Assembly (NCBI GenBank): GCA_028824715.1
Contig: JAPPCV010000087.1
Span: 1 to 64,000 of the forward strand
Direction of reading: 5' to 3'
Source: Boseongicola sp.
GTDB lineage: Bacteria > Pseudomonadota > Alphaproteobacteria > Rhodobacterales > Rhodobacteraceae
DNA: 64,000 nucleotides
The first letter of the stretch is position 1. Each line of letters starts with the position of its first letter. A program made the position numbers and the translations under genes. Under the pieces are notes generated by a model. The model worked only from the letters and a program-made list of their open reading frames with translations, ran no database searches and was not told the DNA's origin. This document shows, piece by piece, positions 4,081 to 44,221 of the stretch.

Positions 4081-4518
4081 TCAGCCAGAAAGAGGTTCCG
4101 TTCGGTCGACACGGTTCGCGGCGCCGCGCTGCAGATAGGCAGCATGGAACCGCGCCGCGACTTGGGCAATGAACGCTCTCGAGAACGTGCCGATTCTGCC
4201 GTCGGGATCGAAGTGGTACGACTGTTCCAGGATGTCGCGGTTGTGCTCGTCCAGAACGATCCAGAGCTGTCGCTCATCGGCGAGACCCACGCGGCGAGCT
4301 TCGGTGATCGGTATCTCAAGGGTGTCCCGGTCCTCGTCGGGCGGCAGGCTGGTGATGGGCAGCAGGTAGAGCATAGTCTTGGTGCTGCGGATCGGGACAA
4401 CGGCGGCGAGCGTGACCGGTCGTGGCTTGCGACCCTCGGTCTCTCCGCGCTCTGCCTGCCACGACCAGAGGTAAGGGTAGCGCCAGACGTCGCCTGAGCC
4501 GGGATCAGTCATCGGCAT
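4081..4518 (-). CDS. PemK/MazF-like putative toxin
   Basis: DPGSGDVWRYPYLWSWQAERGETEGRKPRPVTLAAVV...LPITSLPP...; overlaps the Phd-like gene upstream. Confidence 0.65.
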   Translation of the reverse strand: MPMTDPGSGDVWRYPYLWSWQAERGETEGRKPRPVTLAAVVPIRSTKTMLYLLPITSLPPDEDRDTLEIPITEARRVGLADERQLWIVLDEHNRDILEQSYHFDPDGRIGTFSRAFIAQVAARFHAAYLQRGAANRVDRTEPLSG

Positions 4519-4750
4519 CCATGAGACGGGTCAGCTCGGCGACCAGGAGCTTGCCCTCTTCGGGGGGAATGTCGGCGGTGCGCCGGGCGATCCGGGGGTC
4601 ACCCGATGTCTTGAGCGTTTCGTAGCTCTCGGTCGTGAGCAAGACGAAGCGCCGCTTTCCGTGCCTGGCGATGGCAACCGGCTCCTGGGCCGCGGCGGCC
4701 AGGACGTCTCCGGTCTTGTTGCCGAGGTCCGTGGACGTGAATTGAAGCAT
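4505..4750 (-). CDS. Phd/YefM-family antitoxin
   Basis: MLQFTSTDLGNKTGDVLAAAAQEPVAIARHGKRRFVLLTTESYETLK fits prevent-host-death antitoxins. Confidence 0.75.
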   Translation of the reverse strand: MLQFTSTDLGNKTGDVLAAAAQEPVAIARHGKRRFVLLTTESYETLKTSGDPRIARRTADIPPEEGKLLVAELTRLMDADD

Positions 4751-4761
4751 GTTTCGTTCCT

Positions 4762-5556
4762 TTGTCGAACACATGGAAATTAGCGAAAACCCAGAAAAGG
4801 GTCAAGGACCTGTTCGCGCACACGGCCGGGCTTGACGTCGTCGCGGAGAAGAGGATCGACATCGAGGCCTGCGGCGGCCCCCGGAAGCGCAAAGGACGCA
4901 AGGGCGTGCGGCTCGAGCTGCGGGCCGGGTCCGTCGACCTGGTCCCGCCGGCCGAGCTGCGGAAGGGCACGGCGCCCCTGCGCATGCTCGCCGTGCGCGT
5001 GCTGGAACCCGACCCGCCGGACGGCAAGGAGCCGCTCGACTGGCTGCTGCTGACCACCGAGGGCGGGCCCGACGCGGAGAACGCGCTCCGCGTCGCCGGA
5101 TGGCACGAGAGCAGGTGGCTGATCGAGGAATGGTTCGCCGCCGTCAAGACCGGGACGCGGATCAAGGACCGCAGGCTCAACGCCGCCGACGACCTGCGAA
5201 GGTGCCTCGCCTTCGACGCCATCACCGCCTGCACCGTCATGTCCGTCGAGCGCCTCGCGCGGAGCGCGCCGGACACGCCGGCGCGGACGGTCGTCCACCT
5301 CGACGAGATCCATGTCCTCGCCGTGCACATGGCGAAGCCGAACCACCGCAGGCAGCGCGGCCCGCCAGACCCGGACCAGACGGTCGCGGCGTTCGCGGTC
5401 AACACCGCGCGCCTCGCCGGCTTCATCCCCTCGAAAAGGCAGCCATGGCCCGGGACGCGCAAGCTATGGGAAGGATACCTGATACTGTCGCTCTTCGTCG
5501 AACATCACAGGGCAATGCGCGAATGCGCAAACACCGAGTCAACGGCGTTGCATTGA
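4762..5556 (+). pseudogene. IS4-like transposase, 5'-truncated (C-terminal part only)
   Basis: EPLDWLLLTTEGG...ALRVAGWHESRWLIEEWFAAVKTGTRIKDRRLNAADDLRRCLAFDAITA (region of the DDE glutamate); N-terminal catalytic region absent. Confidence 0.75.
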
Positions 5557-32732: not shown

Positions 32733-33080
32733 ATGCAGACCAACGGACTCATCGCGCTCAGGAAACGCGCAGACTACCTCAAAGCCGCGGCCGGCATGCA
32801 TCGCAGCACACCCGGATTCGTTCTCCAGATCCGGAACCGCGGGGAGGAGGAACCGGATAGCATTCGCGTTGGAATCACCTGCTCGAAGAAGGTGGGAAAT
32901 GCCGCAACCCGCAATCGTGCCAAAAGACGGCTTCGTGAAGTGGCGCGCCTGGCGCTTCCCGAGCACGGCCGGAACGGCTTTGACTACGTCCTGATCGGAC
33001 GTCGCCATGTGACGACCACTCGCGGCTTCGCGACAATGCTCGAAGACCTGAAAGACGCTTTGGCCGAGGTCCACAAGTGA
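32733..33080 (+). CDS. rnpA: Ribonuclease P protein component
   Basis: RVGITCSKKVGNAATRNRAKRRLREVAR; downstream of rpmH. Confidence 0.95.
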   Translation: MQTNGLIALRKRADYLKAAAGMHRSTPGFVLQIRNRGEEEPDSIRVGITCSKKVGNAATRNRAKRRLREVARLALPEHGRNGFDYVLIGRRHVTTTRGFATMLEDLKDALAEVHK

Positions 33081-33301
33081 GTCCGCTTGCCTGGATCCTG
33101 GCCCTGGCCGTCCGGGCATACAGGCTGATTCTCAGTCCGTGGATCGGGCATCATTGCCGCTACCAGCCCACATGTTCGGCATACGCACTGGAGGCGCTTG
33201 CAAAGCACGGCGGCCTCAAGGGCGGCTGGATGGCGCTGAAGCGCATTCTCCGATGCCATCCATGGGGCGGAACCGGTGTCGACAACGTGCCCGACCCGTA
33301 G
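33077..33301 (+). CDS. yidD: Membrane protein insertion efficiency factor
   Basis: AYRLILSPWIGHHCRYQPTCSAYALEALAKHGGLKGGWMALKRILRCHPWGGTGVDNVP. Confidence 0.95.
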   Translation: MSPLAWILALAVRAYRLILSPWIGHHCRYQPTCSAYALEALAKHGGLKGGWMALKRILRCHPWGGTGVDNVPDP

Positions 33302-33452
33302 TTCCGCCAAGCCAGACTTCGTGCATCGGAACAGCCGAATTCGGCAAGAATGTGCAGCGGGCCGGTTTCTGTGCCGTGCCCGCGCCGCAGCACGCAGGCA
33401 CAGGTCTTGACGGCCTGAATCGACACGCCATAAGCGACAATGCAATTTCAGC

Positions 33453-34142
33453 ATGAAAGCCGGACCCATGCAGCTCGAAGAAGCCGATGACGCGTTCTGG
33501 GCACCTCGCGAGTGCTTGCGGAAGCCCATTCCCGAGACATTCGAGGCGGCGATGCTGCTCGATCGAGCCGTCGCGCATCACATGGCCGGCAACCGCAACG
33601 AAACCGCTCGCCTGATCCTGCAGACCGACAGGGAAGACATCAGGGCCTTCACGGAGTCACTTTGGGGGTCGATGGCGGCGAACCCCGACCAGCCAACGTA
33701 CGTCCGGCGGCGTTCCGTCTCTGGCTTGCCCGAACCGGCCGACGAGGACCTTGACAGGAAACGAAAGCCGAACCGCTCTGACGAGCGCGCAATCGTGGCG
33801 CGCTGGGGTCGCCATTGCGTCTATTGCGGCGTGCCGTTGATCCGAAACGCCATACCGAAGGCATTGCAGGCCGCATATCCCGATCTCAGGATCTGGAGCC
33901 CCAGCAACAGGAACGCGGAGCAGCATGCCGCATTCCAGTTGATGTGGATGCAATTCGATCATGTTGTCCCGCACAGCAGGGGCGGGCGAACGGACACCGA
34001 TAACGTCGTGGTGACCTGCGCACCTTGCAACTACGGGAAAGGGGACCTCATGCTTGAGGAACTGGGCCTCATCGATCCACGTTCGCGGCCGGGAGTCCGA
34101 ACATCCTGGGACGGGCTCGAACGAATGCGCGTTGACGGCTGA
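33453..34142 (+). CDS. HNH endonuclease domain protein
   Basis: [12 protein letters not shown] ... [39 protein letters not shown]: paired CxxC and DHxxPxSxGG...N...CxxCN. Confidence 0.88.
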
Positions 34143-34182
34143 CGCGCTCCCCGGGTGCACGGGCCAATCAAGGGCGAACCAG

Positions 34183-36222
34183 ATGTCGAAGCGCGCGAGC
34201 ATGCGAGATGCCAGGGACACTGACGCTCCCGAGCTGTTCGGGTCGGACGCCGCGTGGGCGCCAACACGGGTGCTCGATGCCCAGGCGCTGGGAGTGCGCC
34301 ACTTCGATCTCGACGAGTTCGCTCGGTACCGGTGCATTCGGATCCTCACCTACTCGGCAAGCGTTCCTATGCTCGCCTCGCTGCTCGATCAGTTCGAAGA
34401 GGCAAGCGTCGAGGTGGTGATGGGCCATACTCGAACCGTGAATGACATGGCCGCGCTCATCGCGCTGCAGACGGTCGCGATGGAGGACGTTCGCACGGCG
34501 CTTCAGGGCATCTCCGAGTTGCGCAGGGAGGAGATTCTCGGGCGCATTCGGAGCGGCAGATTGCGCGTGTGGGTGGTCGAAGGACATGTTTCGCATGCGA
34601 AGATCTTCCTGCTTTCGGACGGGCCGGACGGAGGCCGTTCCGTGCTGACCGGTTCAGCCAACTTCTCGGCATCGGCCTTGCTCGGCGACCAGCACGAGGT
34701 GCTCATGCGGTTCAATGACGATCTCGCTTGGGACCATTTCGAGGACCAGTATCGACGCGTCCGGGATCATGCATCCGCCGAGCTACCGCTCGCGAAGCTC
34801 GCCGAAGACCGGCGCGACCCGGCGGATGGCATGTCACCGGTCGAAGCGCCGGTGCTGGCGCCCGACCGCGGGTTGCAGGTGATTCAGGTCGCGAAACCGG
34901 TCGAGGCGGAGGAGTCGGTCGAGCGCGGGCGTCGGCTGGAGAGGATTTACGATCTGGTGCTGCCGGCACTGCGCAAGGAAAAGCCGAAGGCCGACAGGAC
35001 AAAGGTCAGGCTGGACGACTCGATTCGCAAGCGGTTCTCCGGGATGATCCGGCGCCAGACCAGAGGTCAGGCTGCCACCCACCCGACCTTCTCCCTTGAC
35101 CTGGACAGGCGGCAAGCCACCGTCTGCGGCGCCGACTGGACTCTCGACACCGAGGACGGGCAGGTGAGCCGGGACGCCGAAGCGCTGGTGACGTTCTGGG
35201 AAACCTACGGCGAGGCATTTCGCGGCGACGTCGGGAAATTGCAGAAGGACTACTTCGTCTTCCTGTGCTGGATGTTCTTCTCGCCGCTCATATGCACGTT
35301 GCGTCGCCAGGCCGCGCTCGAGGACCGGGACGTCATCCGCTATCCCAGGGTCGGGATCATCTATGGCAAGTCCAACTCCGGCAAGACGCAACTCGTGGAC
35401 ATCGTCGGAAAGTTCATGTTTGCGGACGATTTCCCGAACGCTGTCAGGGCGCCGATGACGGGCTTGCTTCTGCGCGAGATCGATGCGTCTTTCCGGCGCA
35501 TGCCCGCGTTCTTCGATGACATTGGCTGGCGCCGTTTCCGGGACCATGCGCCGGAATTCATCAAGGACGAGACCTTGCCGCCGCACCACGAGACCCCATG
35601 CATGGTGGTCTCGATGAACGCCCGGGTCGGCGCATTCCCGGACGAAGTCGCGAAGCGGTGTCTCCTGATCTACAGCTCTGCCTCACTTCCCAGCGAAGAC
35701 GAGGACGGCCGCATCGCCATGGCCGACCGGCTGGCCACGATCGAGCCCACCACGCATCTCTATCGTCGCTACCTGCGCGTGGTGCTGGACCGCATCGACG
35801 CGGACGGTGGCGACTGGCTGCGGCTGTCGTCGGAAGTCCTGTCAGGCATCCTGGGCGAGTGTGGCCATGATCCTGCATGGGCAGGCCCGGTCTCTTGGCA
35901 GGAGTATGCGTCCACGCGGTATGATGCCCTGCGTGAGCAGCTGCGCAGCCTTCTCGATCCGGCGAGGCGCCAGGCTTCCCGCCCGGCCACTGACAGCGAG
36001 GGCTGGTTTGCCGAGGGAGGCAAGGTCTGGATCCGGGTCGGGACGAACAGTTTCGGACATCCCGACTTCGAGTGGCGGGATCTCCCGACCTACATGCTGC
36101 ACGAGCACGAGAGCCGCGCGGCCGAGTTCGTGCTCGACGTCAAGGCGGTCGAGAATTTCCTGGGCGCAAGACTTGAGCAGCCACGCTGGCGTTTCCCGTT
36201 TCGGTTGCGGTCCGTGAGGTAG
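34183..36222 (+). CDS. PLD-like nuclease domain fused to P-loop ATPase (~680 aa), unrecognised family
   Basis: N-term HAKIFLLSDGPDGGRSVLTGSANFSASALLGDQHEVLMRF (PLD/HKD-like plus GSxN); C-term GIIYGKSNSGKTQLVDIVGKF (Walker A), RMPAFFDDIGW (Walker B-like), CMVVSMNARVGAFPDEVAKRCLLIY (sensor-like). Confidence 0.82.
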   Translation: MSKRASMRDARDTDAPELFGSDAAWAPTRVLDAQALGVRHFDLDEFARYRCIRILTYSASVPMLASLLDQFEEASVEVVMGHTRTVNDMAALIALQTVAMEDVRTALQGISELRREEILGRIRSGRLRVWVVEGHVSHAKIFLLSDGPDGGRSVLTGSANFSASALLGDQHEVLMRFNDDLAWDHFEDQYRRVRDHASAELPLAKLAEDRRDPADGMSPVEAPVLAPDRGLQVIQVAKPVEAEESVERGRRLERIYDLVLPALRKEKPKADRTKVRLDDSIRKRFSGMIRRQTRGQAATHPTFSLDLDRRQATVCGADWTLDTEDGQVSRDAEALVTFWETYGEAFRGDVGKLQKDYFVFLCWMFFSPLICTLRRQAALEDRDVIRYPRVGIIYGKSNSGKTQLVDIVGKFMFADDFPNAVRAPMTGLLLREIDASFRRMPAFFDDIGWRRFRDHAPEFIKDETLPPHHETPCMVVSMNARVGAFPDEVAKRCLLIYSSASLPSEDEDGRIAMADRLATIEPTTHLYRRYLRVVLDRIDADGGDWLRLSSEVLSGILGECGHDPAWAGPVSWQEYASTRYDALREQLRSLLDPARRQASRPATDSEGWFAEGGKVWIRVGTNSFGHPDFEWRDLPTYMLHEHESRAAEFVLDVKAVENFLGARLEQPRWRFPFRLRSVR

Positions 36223-36274
36223 CTGGCCCGTGCCGTCCCTTGTCCTGCAATCCTGAATTCAGTATTTCCGCACC

Positions 36275-37249
36275 ATGCTTGACGAGGCTGACGACATCCA
36301 TCCGCTCTTTCAGGGAGCGCCTTCGACGACCGAGTTCCGGAAGCTCCGAAAGCGCATCATCCGCAATGTACGCATGGCAATCGAAGAGTATGGCATGGTC
36401 GAACGCGACACACGCTGGCTGATCTGTCTCTCGGGCGGCAAGGACAGCTACACGCTCCTCGCTGCGCTGCATGAACTCAAGTGGCGCGGTCACCTGCCAG
36501 TGGACATGCTTGCCTGCAACCTGGATCAAGGACAGCCGGGCTTCCCGTCAACCGTGCTGCCGGATTTCCTCGACCGCATGCAGATCCCACACAGGATCGA
36601 GTTCCAGGATACCTATTCCATTGTCACCGACAAAGTGCCGGCCAACAGGACCTACTGCGCACTCTGCTCGCGGCTGAGGCGTGGACATCTCTATCGCATT
36701 GCCCGCGAAGAGGGGTGCTCGGCAATCGTGCTCGGCCACCACCGGGATGACATTCTCGAGACATTCTTCATGAACCTTTTCCATGGCGGCCGGCTGGCGA
36801 CGATGCCGCCGAAACTCCTGAACGAGGAAGGCGACCTGCTTGTCTGTCGCCCGCTTGCCCATGTGGCGGAAGCTGACTGCGCACGTTTTGCCGCAGCGAT
36901 GAACTATCCCATCATTCCCTGCGACCTCTGTGGCAGCCAGGACGGGCTGCAGCGCCAGCAGGTCAAGGCGATCCTGGATGAGTGGGAAAGGAACGCGCCC
37001 GGTCGGCGGCGGGTCATGTTCCGCGCTTTGACGAACGCGCGTCCGTCGCACCTTCTCGATCCCCGTCTCTTCGATTTCGCGGGACTTGCCAGCAAACCCA
37101 AGGACACGAACGACGTCGATTGCCGTGAATTCTCGGCACTCCCATCGTCCTGGAGCGATCCGTCGGAACCCGCCGTCCCTGGCCCAGCCTCGCCGGCGGG
37201 CGACCCCGCTGCTGCCCGTGCGATTCGCGGGGCGCGCCACACGACCTGA
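36275..37249 (+). CDS. ttcA: tRNA 2-thiocytidine(32) synthetase TtcA
   Basis: [19 protein letters not shown]-loop; [46 protein letters not shown]. Confidence 0.95.
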
Positions 37250-43232: not shown

Positions 43233-43970
43233 TCATGCGAGATCCCTTCCGTTACGGCAGCCTGCCCCCACCGGCGGGGCGATCCGTTGAGAATCCTCGG
43301 CGCGTTTCAGCGAGGCCCTCCGGAGCCGTCCCCGCCACCCCACTTTCTTCGCCGCAAGTCCCGTCATGTCGTAGCTTTCCGCGAAGTCGTCCCCGGCTTC
43401 AGCCCTGCGCTGGTCAAAGACGATGCGGCTGGCCATTCGTCCCGCCCTCTCGATCTCGTCGAACAGGCCTTCCGCCGAAGGGATGATGTTCAGCGCCTCG
43501 AGCGCGAGGGCGAAGGACCATGTCGAGAGGTGGCGCACGCGTGGCCCGAAATCCATGTTCCTCACGCGCCTGTCTTCGAACAGCACCAGTCCGGTCGTGC
43601 CACCGACCAGTCCACCGCGCATTTCCTCCGCCAGGTCCCGTATGGAGTTCTCCCCGGCGATCCTCATCTCGCGTCGCACCTTCCGGCGCTCGTGATCAAG
43701 CCTGCCCTCCGGGACGTAGTCCAGGAGGTCGAAAGCCCTTTGCAGGAGACGTCCGGACGGGGTTTCCACGATGCGCAGCCGGTTGCCGCCCGCCGCGACC
43801 CACCCTGCAAGGGCCTCCCGTTCCGGCGCGGACGGACGGCCCTCGAGAAGCTCTGTCCTGACGGCATCCGTGATCAGGATCTGGCTGTTGAACCTGTCGA
43901 CGAGATCGAGCCGTCCGACCAGGCCAAGCGAGATGAGCGGGCCCGTGTCCGGCACGACGACGGAGATCAA
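43233..43970 (-). CDS. PIN-domain-like putative ribonuclease toxin
   Basis: SVVVPDTGPLISLGLVGRLDLVDRFNSQILITDAVRTELLEG ... GLVGGTTGLVLFEDRRVRNMDF: PIN-like acidic residues. Confidence 0.65.
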   Translation of the reverse strand: MISVVVPDTGPLISLGLVGRLDLVDRFNSQILITDAVRTELLEGRPSAPEREALAGWVAAGGNRLRIVETPSGRLLQRAFDLLDYVPEGRLDHERRKVRREMRIAGENSIRDLAEEMRGGLVGGTTGLVLFEDRRVRNMDFGPRVRHLSTWSFALALEALNIIPSAEGLFDEIERAGRMASRIVFDQRRAEAGDDFAESYDMTGLAAKKVGWRGRLRRASLKRAEDSQRIAPPVGAGCRNGRDLA

Positions 43971-44221
43971 TTCCCCGCGGCCTCCGGAGCGGAAACCAGG
44001 TTTGCGCGCAGAAACGGCAGCGCCTCGCGGAGTTCGCGCTCCGTCTCCGCTTCCTCCCCGGCGCCCCGGGGAAGGGGGACCTCGCAGTCCGCCATCACCA
44101 GCATCAGGTCGGCGAATCCCGTCACGCCAAGACGCCGGATGGCCTCCTCGGGCGGGATGACGCCCCTGGAGTACGCTTCCAGAACCTGGGCTGTCGTGAC
44201 GAGTTCCATCTTGCGCTCCAT
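43967..44221 (-). CDS. Small protein overlapping the PIN-like gene, putative antitoxin
   Basis: MERKMELVTTAQVLEAYSRGVIPPEEAIRRLGVTGFADLMLVMADCEVPLP; stop overlaps start of downstream PIN-like ORF. Confidence 0.55.
   Translation of the reverse strand: MERKMELVTTAQVLEAYSRGVIPPEEAIRRLGVTGFADLMLVMADCEVPLPRGAGEEAETERELREALPFLRANLVSAPEAAGN

Follow-up and report, generated by a model that had tools for sequence, protein, structure and literature searches.

Two described systems combine a PLD nuclease with an ATPase. SauUSI is a type IV restriction enzyme in which a PLD nuclease, an SF2 ATPase, and a TRD are joined in a single chain (PMC7913695). The CglI/NgoAVII restriction-modification systems consist of an R protein with PLD and B3 domains, an N protein that is an SF2 helicase, and a methyltransferase (PMC4267653). 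They are precedents for ATPase control of a dimeric PLD nuclease. In the literature that we found, the characterized ATP-dependent PLD nucleases (SauUSI and CglI/NgoAVII) use SF2 motors. Here we analyze a gene pair from the Rhodobacterales genus Boseongicola in which an HNH endonuclease gene is followed by a gene for a PLD nuclease joined to a P-loop ATPase with SF3-like motifs. Literature searches returned no description of a PLD-SF3 fusion, and the PLD-ATPase apparently represents a rare and undescribed architecture. The significance of the locus rests on this protein family and not on the idea of a nuclease cassette.

The gene pair and its flanking genes

The HNH and PLD-ATPase genes are located between yidD and ttcA on the plus strand of the window, which is the whole 64,000-nt stretch of DNA that was analyzed. 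To the left are rnpA (32733-33080, Pfam Ribonuclease_P) and yidD (33077..33301, plus strand, Pfam YidD 4.7e-29), the start of which overlaps the rnpA stop. The HNH gene (33453..34142) encodes 229 amino acids and matches Pfam HNH_5 and HNH. After a gap of 40 nt (34143..34182; about 40-43 nt across the genus) comes the PLD-ATPase gene (34183..36222), which encodes 679 amino acids with a PLD match and ATPase motifs. To the right are a ttcA-like PP-loop gene (36275..37249, plus strand, Pfam ATP_bind_3 4.5e-13) and yidC (from 38039). The position and strand of the pair are exactly as given in the first-pass annotation. The PLD-ATPase starts at a conserved ATG at 34183, and its frame is open back to 34054. 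Synteny within the genus and dN/dS values of 0.14-0.19 show that both ORFs are real genes. The neighborhood is a normally tight block of housekeeping genes, and no defense island was found in it. Elsewhere in the window, two small adjacent gene pairs on the minus strand resemble toxin-antitoxin modules by eye only: a MazF/PemK-like gene with a Phd-like gene (4084-4774), and a PIN-like gene with a small partner (43236-44221).

Comparison with other genera identifies the pair as a derived insertion. In 14 genomes from other genera, yidD and ttcA could be compared on a single stretch; 11 of these junctions are empty, with a gap of 29-115 bp. In addition, the PLD-ATPase was found in none of the 296 other genera in a 298-genome sample of the family. 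These two results argue for insertion, and the possibility that the interval is fixed and ancestral in the whole family did not hold. The three remaining gaps are enlarged. One is 1.33 kb long and contains a DUF900 alpha/beta hydrolase gene on the opposite strand (L072), one is 0.69 kb long with a DUF1353 gene on the opposite strand (L082), and one is 0.64 kb long with a small ORF that has no family assignment (L075). The junction appears to tolerate insertions, and the cargo found in other genera is not defense-like. The first-pass annotation had suggested that the site could be an integration hotspot for defense cassettes in related genomes. Presence and absence of the pair do differ between genomes, as in an insertion, but with most junctions empty and the others carrying DUF900, DUF1353, or a tiny ORF, the hotspot reading found no support.

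The pair may be expressed from its own promoter. A promoter-like element, TTGACG-N16-CATAAG, lies directly 5' of the HNH gene (33407..33434, plus strand); it was matched to the consensus by eye, did not pass a strict scan, and is conserved among six compared sequences of the genus. A strict scan found no terminator-like site in the plus direction between the HNH and PLD-ATPase genes. Together with the 40-43 nt gap, this makes co-transcription plausible, and the two genes are likely co-transcribed from the predicted promoter just 5' of HNH. The identical motif with the same spacing is found directly before ttcA in a genus with an empty site (G014), and a similar CTTGACG element is present in another (G017). 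The insertion may have separated ttcA from a promoter that it had earlier. The elements before HNH and ttcA agree in motif and spacing but differ in their spacer letters, so that homology is not separated from convergence. The conserved promoter-like elements before HNH and ttcA indicate that expression of the pair is not necessarily tied to the rnpA transcript. The suggestion that the pair rides on a constitutive operon is thus modified: HNH has a promoter-like element of its own, and another conserved element precedes ttcA.

The region between the PLD-ATPase gene and ttcA varies in length. The whole spacer ranges from 53 to 959 bp in the genus, although the approximately 50 bp before ttcA are conserved. 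This conserved segment contains an imperfect palindrome with 20-nt arms (36242..36273), which is a possible control region or operator for ttcA. In sister species (L010, L011, L012, and L013) the spacer is 0.35-0.96 kb long. One of these spacers has a short Phd/YefM antitoxin-like ORF on the minus strand (L011:10689-10871; Pfam 2e-6, below cut-off) with no visible toxin, apparently a decayed toxin-antitoxin module.

Domains and motifs of the two proteins

The PLD-ATPase has a PLD domain at about residues 30-200, a linker, an SF3-like P-loop ATPase at about residues 360-540, and a C-terminal region. The PLD catalytic motifs are H138/K140 (HxK), GSxN at residues 157-160, and E172, and they are nearly invariant in a 14-row family alignment, across identities of 25-34%. 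The roles of the HxK, GSxN, and Glu residues are known from the BfiI-type nuclease family. Pfam scores of the window protein fall short of the thresholds for RE_NgoFVII (PF09565; 20.4 bits, cut-off 23.8) and PLDc_2 (21.1 bits, cut-off 27), and its PLD domain is recognizable at 3e-4. The RE_NgoFVII model matches the PLD domain in eight of nine family alignment rows, with a best value of 1.9e-6, and some relatives carry the RefSeq name "restriction endonuclease PLD domain-containing protein". At the acidic position of HxKx4(D/E), the proteins from the genus and from Acetobacteraceae have Ser and the Thermus relative has Glu; the Ser places a reservation on the nuclease reading.

The ATPase was assigned by motif alone (YGKSNSGKT, FFDDIG, VVSMN, and AKR). 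The P-loop (Walker A YG[KR]S..GKT), the acidic DD, the S/T-x-N, and the basic KR pair are conserved in the genus, Acetobacter, and Thermus proteins, and they occur in the order found in SF3 helicases. Neither the ATPase region nor the C-terminal 130 residues (approximately) matched any model in Pfam, PADLOC, PHROGs, or NCBIfam, and the family as such is unmatched in the defense, phage, and general family libraries that were scanned. Scans of the window protein and of the family alignment rows found no match to an SF2 family. In hhalign comparisons, 109 columns were colinear with a D5/P4-type SF3 set at a probability of 73%. An ABC-type control reached 86% over 20 columns, and unrelated P-loop controls aligned over only 11-44 columns around Walker A; the SF3 score is not beyond those of the controls. 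An AlphaFold model, made from seven near-identical rows without the plasmid homologs, had a pLDDT of 35, and sequence searches of the PDB gave nothing meaningful.

The first protein of the pair belongs to the HNH endonucleases. Its Pfam scores exceed the cut-offs for HNH_5 (38.3 bits, cut-off 27.5) and HNH (34.0 bits, cut-off 21.4), and its catalytic His and Asn residues are intact. An N-terminal region of about 120 amino acids is followed by the CxxC pairs C122/C125 and C189/C192 and the core D169-H170...N184...N193. D169-H170, N184, and N193 are invariant in six copies from the genus.

Distribution and history of the two genes

The PLD-ATPase is found throughout one genus, and its other relatives are on plasmids. 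It is present in all eight genomes of the genus with 89-95% identity (two copies are cut by contig ends), and it is in the yidD-ttcA interval wherever the contig permits a check. It was absent from the 53 relatives in other genera that were searched. Samples of 385 genomes from the class and 399 from the phylum contained no full-length relative, and no relatives were found in a phage collection or in viral contigs. Weak class- and phylum-wide matches (G110, G883, G965, and G099) covered only the PLD motif region in frames of about 1100 amino acids and were set aside. The sole relatives found outside the genus are 25-34% identical and are encoded on plasmids of Acetobacter, Komagataeibacter, and Thermus. 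These proteins (for example, WP_244176999.1) have the same domain order across 94% of their length. Their gene neighborhoods include toxin-antitoxin modules, transposases, and transfer genes, and in Thermus oshimai a transposase splits the PLD-ATPase gene. Plasmid pKOB3 of Komagataeibacter oboediens carries the neighborhood twice (L056 and L018), with one PLD-ATPase gene intact and one shortened.

The plasmid relatives raise the question of a role in replication or mobility. A PLD-SF3 protein could be the analog of an HUH-SF3 Rep protein, using a phosphohistidine intermediate to nick an origin or transfer strands there. Such a role would be in keeping with the nuclease-SF3 order, which matches Rep architecture, and with homologs that are plasmid-borne and sometimes occur as two copies per plasmid. 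However, the carrier plasmids have other replication initiators and relaxases, no origin-like and no convincing terminal or target-site repeats were found around the pair, and the gene is fixed in the genus as a single chromosomal copy. A Rep-like enzyme is therefore highly improbable in our judgment.

The pair is an old resident of the genus, present in single copy under purifying selection of housekeeping strength, and it is not a recent arrival. The mean pairwise dN/dS in five genomes is 0.142 for the PLD-ATPase and 0.185 for HNH, and for the neighbors it is 0.178 (rnpA), 0.236 (yidD), 0.186 (ttcA), and 0.140 (yidC). Within the genus the PLD-ATPase is better conserved than rnpA, yidD, and HNH, and HNH evolves faster. 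The GC content of the pair is 0.63-0.64 compared to 0.63 for the window, and GC3 also matches the neighbors, ruling out an argument for recent transfer from composition. The gene trees of HNH, PLD, ttcA, yidC, and rnpA disagree in detail, on short branches, and we do not use them to argue for transfer within the genus or for strict co-inheritance.

Defense genes are seldom fixed throughout a genus under housekeeping-like selection, and this pattern might instead indicate a cellular role. The main alternative to a defense function is that the PLD-ATPase is a domesticated cellular enzyme of DNA processing, such as a repair or replication-fork nuclease. This would account for a single-copy gene of ordinary composition that is as constrained as yidC and more conserved than the genes beside it. 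A core repair enzyme would not be expected to have this distribution, however, as the protein is absent from all other sampled genera of the family and its relatives are found on plasmids with toxin-antitoxin cargo. We regard a cellular role as unlikely.

The HNH gene belongs to a dispersed family of solitary HNH genes. It is whole in six of the eight genomes of the genus, partial at a contig end in one, and a remnant in one. Six relatives were found elsewhere, 39-44% identical and all solitary: one on a Novosphingobium plasmid, one each in G011, G425, and G006, and two extra copies in G004. G004 and G006 are themselves members of the genus, and their further copies (L129, L130, and L131) are 39-41% identical. 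The relative in G011 (L132:4257-4967, 42% identical) is inside a TRAP transporter operon, between the substrate-binding and membrane genes, and resembles a freestanding insertion. A viral search with the HNH query gave one match, with 23% identity. These findings raise a real possibility, which we place a little short of even, that HNH is a freestanding mobile nuclease, of homing type or another kind, that came to lie beside the PLD-ATPase incidentally. The solitary homologs at unrelated sites and the additional copies in G004 agree with mobility. On the other hand, the gene is whole in six members of the genus, its dN/dS is low at the value given above, and no intron, intein, or other sign of homing was seen. 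A mobile HNH would be compatible with our preferred explanation of the PLD-ATPase.

The two genes were not found together outside the genus in the sequences searched. When HNH was compared with all plasmids, those of Acetobacter, Komagataeibacter, or Thermus had no relative, and none of the six solitary HNH homologs has a PLD-ATPase beside it. One member of the genus (G007) has an intact PLD-ATPase with 91% identity, while its HNH is apparently a C-terminal remnant that has lost the loop joining the two parts of the core; the contig ends close to this remnant, and the genome carries 7% contamination. The first-pass annotation viewed the pair as horizontally acquired and possibly working as one system. 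Horizontal acquisition fits the derived insertion and the occurrence of PLD-ATPase relatives only on plasmids of distant bacteria. The co-occurrence that it expected of a joint system was not seen in any of the sequences examined.

A two-component defense system, in which HNH and the PLD-ATPase act jointly by a Septu-like logic of ATPase plus HNH with an extra PLD nuclease, thus has little support, and we regard it as unlikely. The genes are adjacent on the same strand, the short gap is kept throughout the genus and lacks a terminator-like site, and both genes are under purifying selection. Against this stand the missing adjacency outside the genus, the retention of the PLD-ATPase with a broken HNH in G007 (with the contig-end and contamination caveat), and the faster evolution of HNH. 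Adjacency in a single lineage is compatible with a partnership formed there. Most likely, HNH and the PLD-ATPase are separately derived nuclease genes that were juxtaposed once before the genus diversified and were then kept.

Proposed activity and comparison with known systems

Our preferred explanation, to which we give about even chances, is that the PLD-ATPase is an ATP-dependent DNA nuclease resembling BfiI and SauUSI, with an SF3-like rather than an SF2 motor, that acts against incoming plasmid or phage DNA; HNH would be separate and likely co-transcribed. A single HxK active site, independent of metal, would be built from two paired N-terminal PLD domains. The P-loop ATPase, SF3-like and probably a ring, would load on or move DNA and gate cleavage. 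The enzyme would attack incoming DNA as SauUSI or CglI/NgoAVII do, but with a different motor, and HNH would probably cut DNA independently. In this reading, an anti-invader enzyme of plasmid type was domesticated in the genus. We infer the nuclease and ATPase activities, the dimer or ring, the defense role, and co-transcription from sequence. Fixation in one genus within a block of core genes offers a clean case in which to examine whether plasmid-type nucleases become domesticated.

The locus differs from known defense systems that have related parts. PADLOC models of defense systems gave no good match to either protein. Septu PtuAB also has an HNH protein adjoining an ATPase, but the PADLOC match of HNH to PtuB is marginal (0.0056) and the ATPase has no match to PtuA. 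DISARM includes the PLD protein DrmC; here the PADLOC match to DrmC is marginal (0.0078), and no DrmA, DrmB, or methyltransferase gene adjoins. No partner for modification or target recognition was found at the locus.

The similarity to CglI/NgoAVII is in the NgoFVII-type PLD domain and the presence of an ATPase that would control it. The locus is not a member of this group, with rnpA, yidD, HNH, ttcA, and yidC as its genes around the PLD-ATPase. It has no B3 domain, SF2/Z1 protein, or methyltransferase, and nuclease and ATPase are in a single polypeptide. Similarly, the window protein has the HxK, GSxN, and downstream Glu of the PLD fold of BfiI/RE_NgoFVII (PF09565), while the ATPase fusion takes the place of the B3 DNA-binding domain and the Pfam score is below cut-off. 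The ATPase resembles the D5/P4-alpha SF3 helicases (PF19263 and PF05272) in the order of Walker A, acidic motif, S/T-x-N sensor, and basic finger; it differs from them in lacking a primase, and the similarity is at the profile level only.

SauUSI shares with the window protein an N-terminal PLD domain with a single HxK, a linker, and then a P-loop motor in one polypeptide. The window protein differs in having an SF3-like instead of an SF2 motor, in having no recognizable TRD, and in the Ser that replaces the acidic residue of HxKx4E (Glu in the Thermus relative). We tentatively suggest, as a somewhat unlikely extension of our preferred explanation, that the PLD-ATPase represents a previously undescribed class of ATP-driven nuclease, with a PLD (HxK) nuclease and an SF3/AAA+ ring motor joined in one chain that would destroy or process invading DNA by a mechanism different from SF2-driven restriction. 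If true, the combination of PLD with an SF3-like motor would represent a separate means of linking ATP to metal-independent cleavage of DNA.
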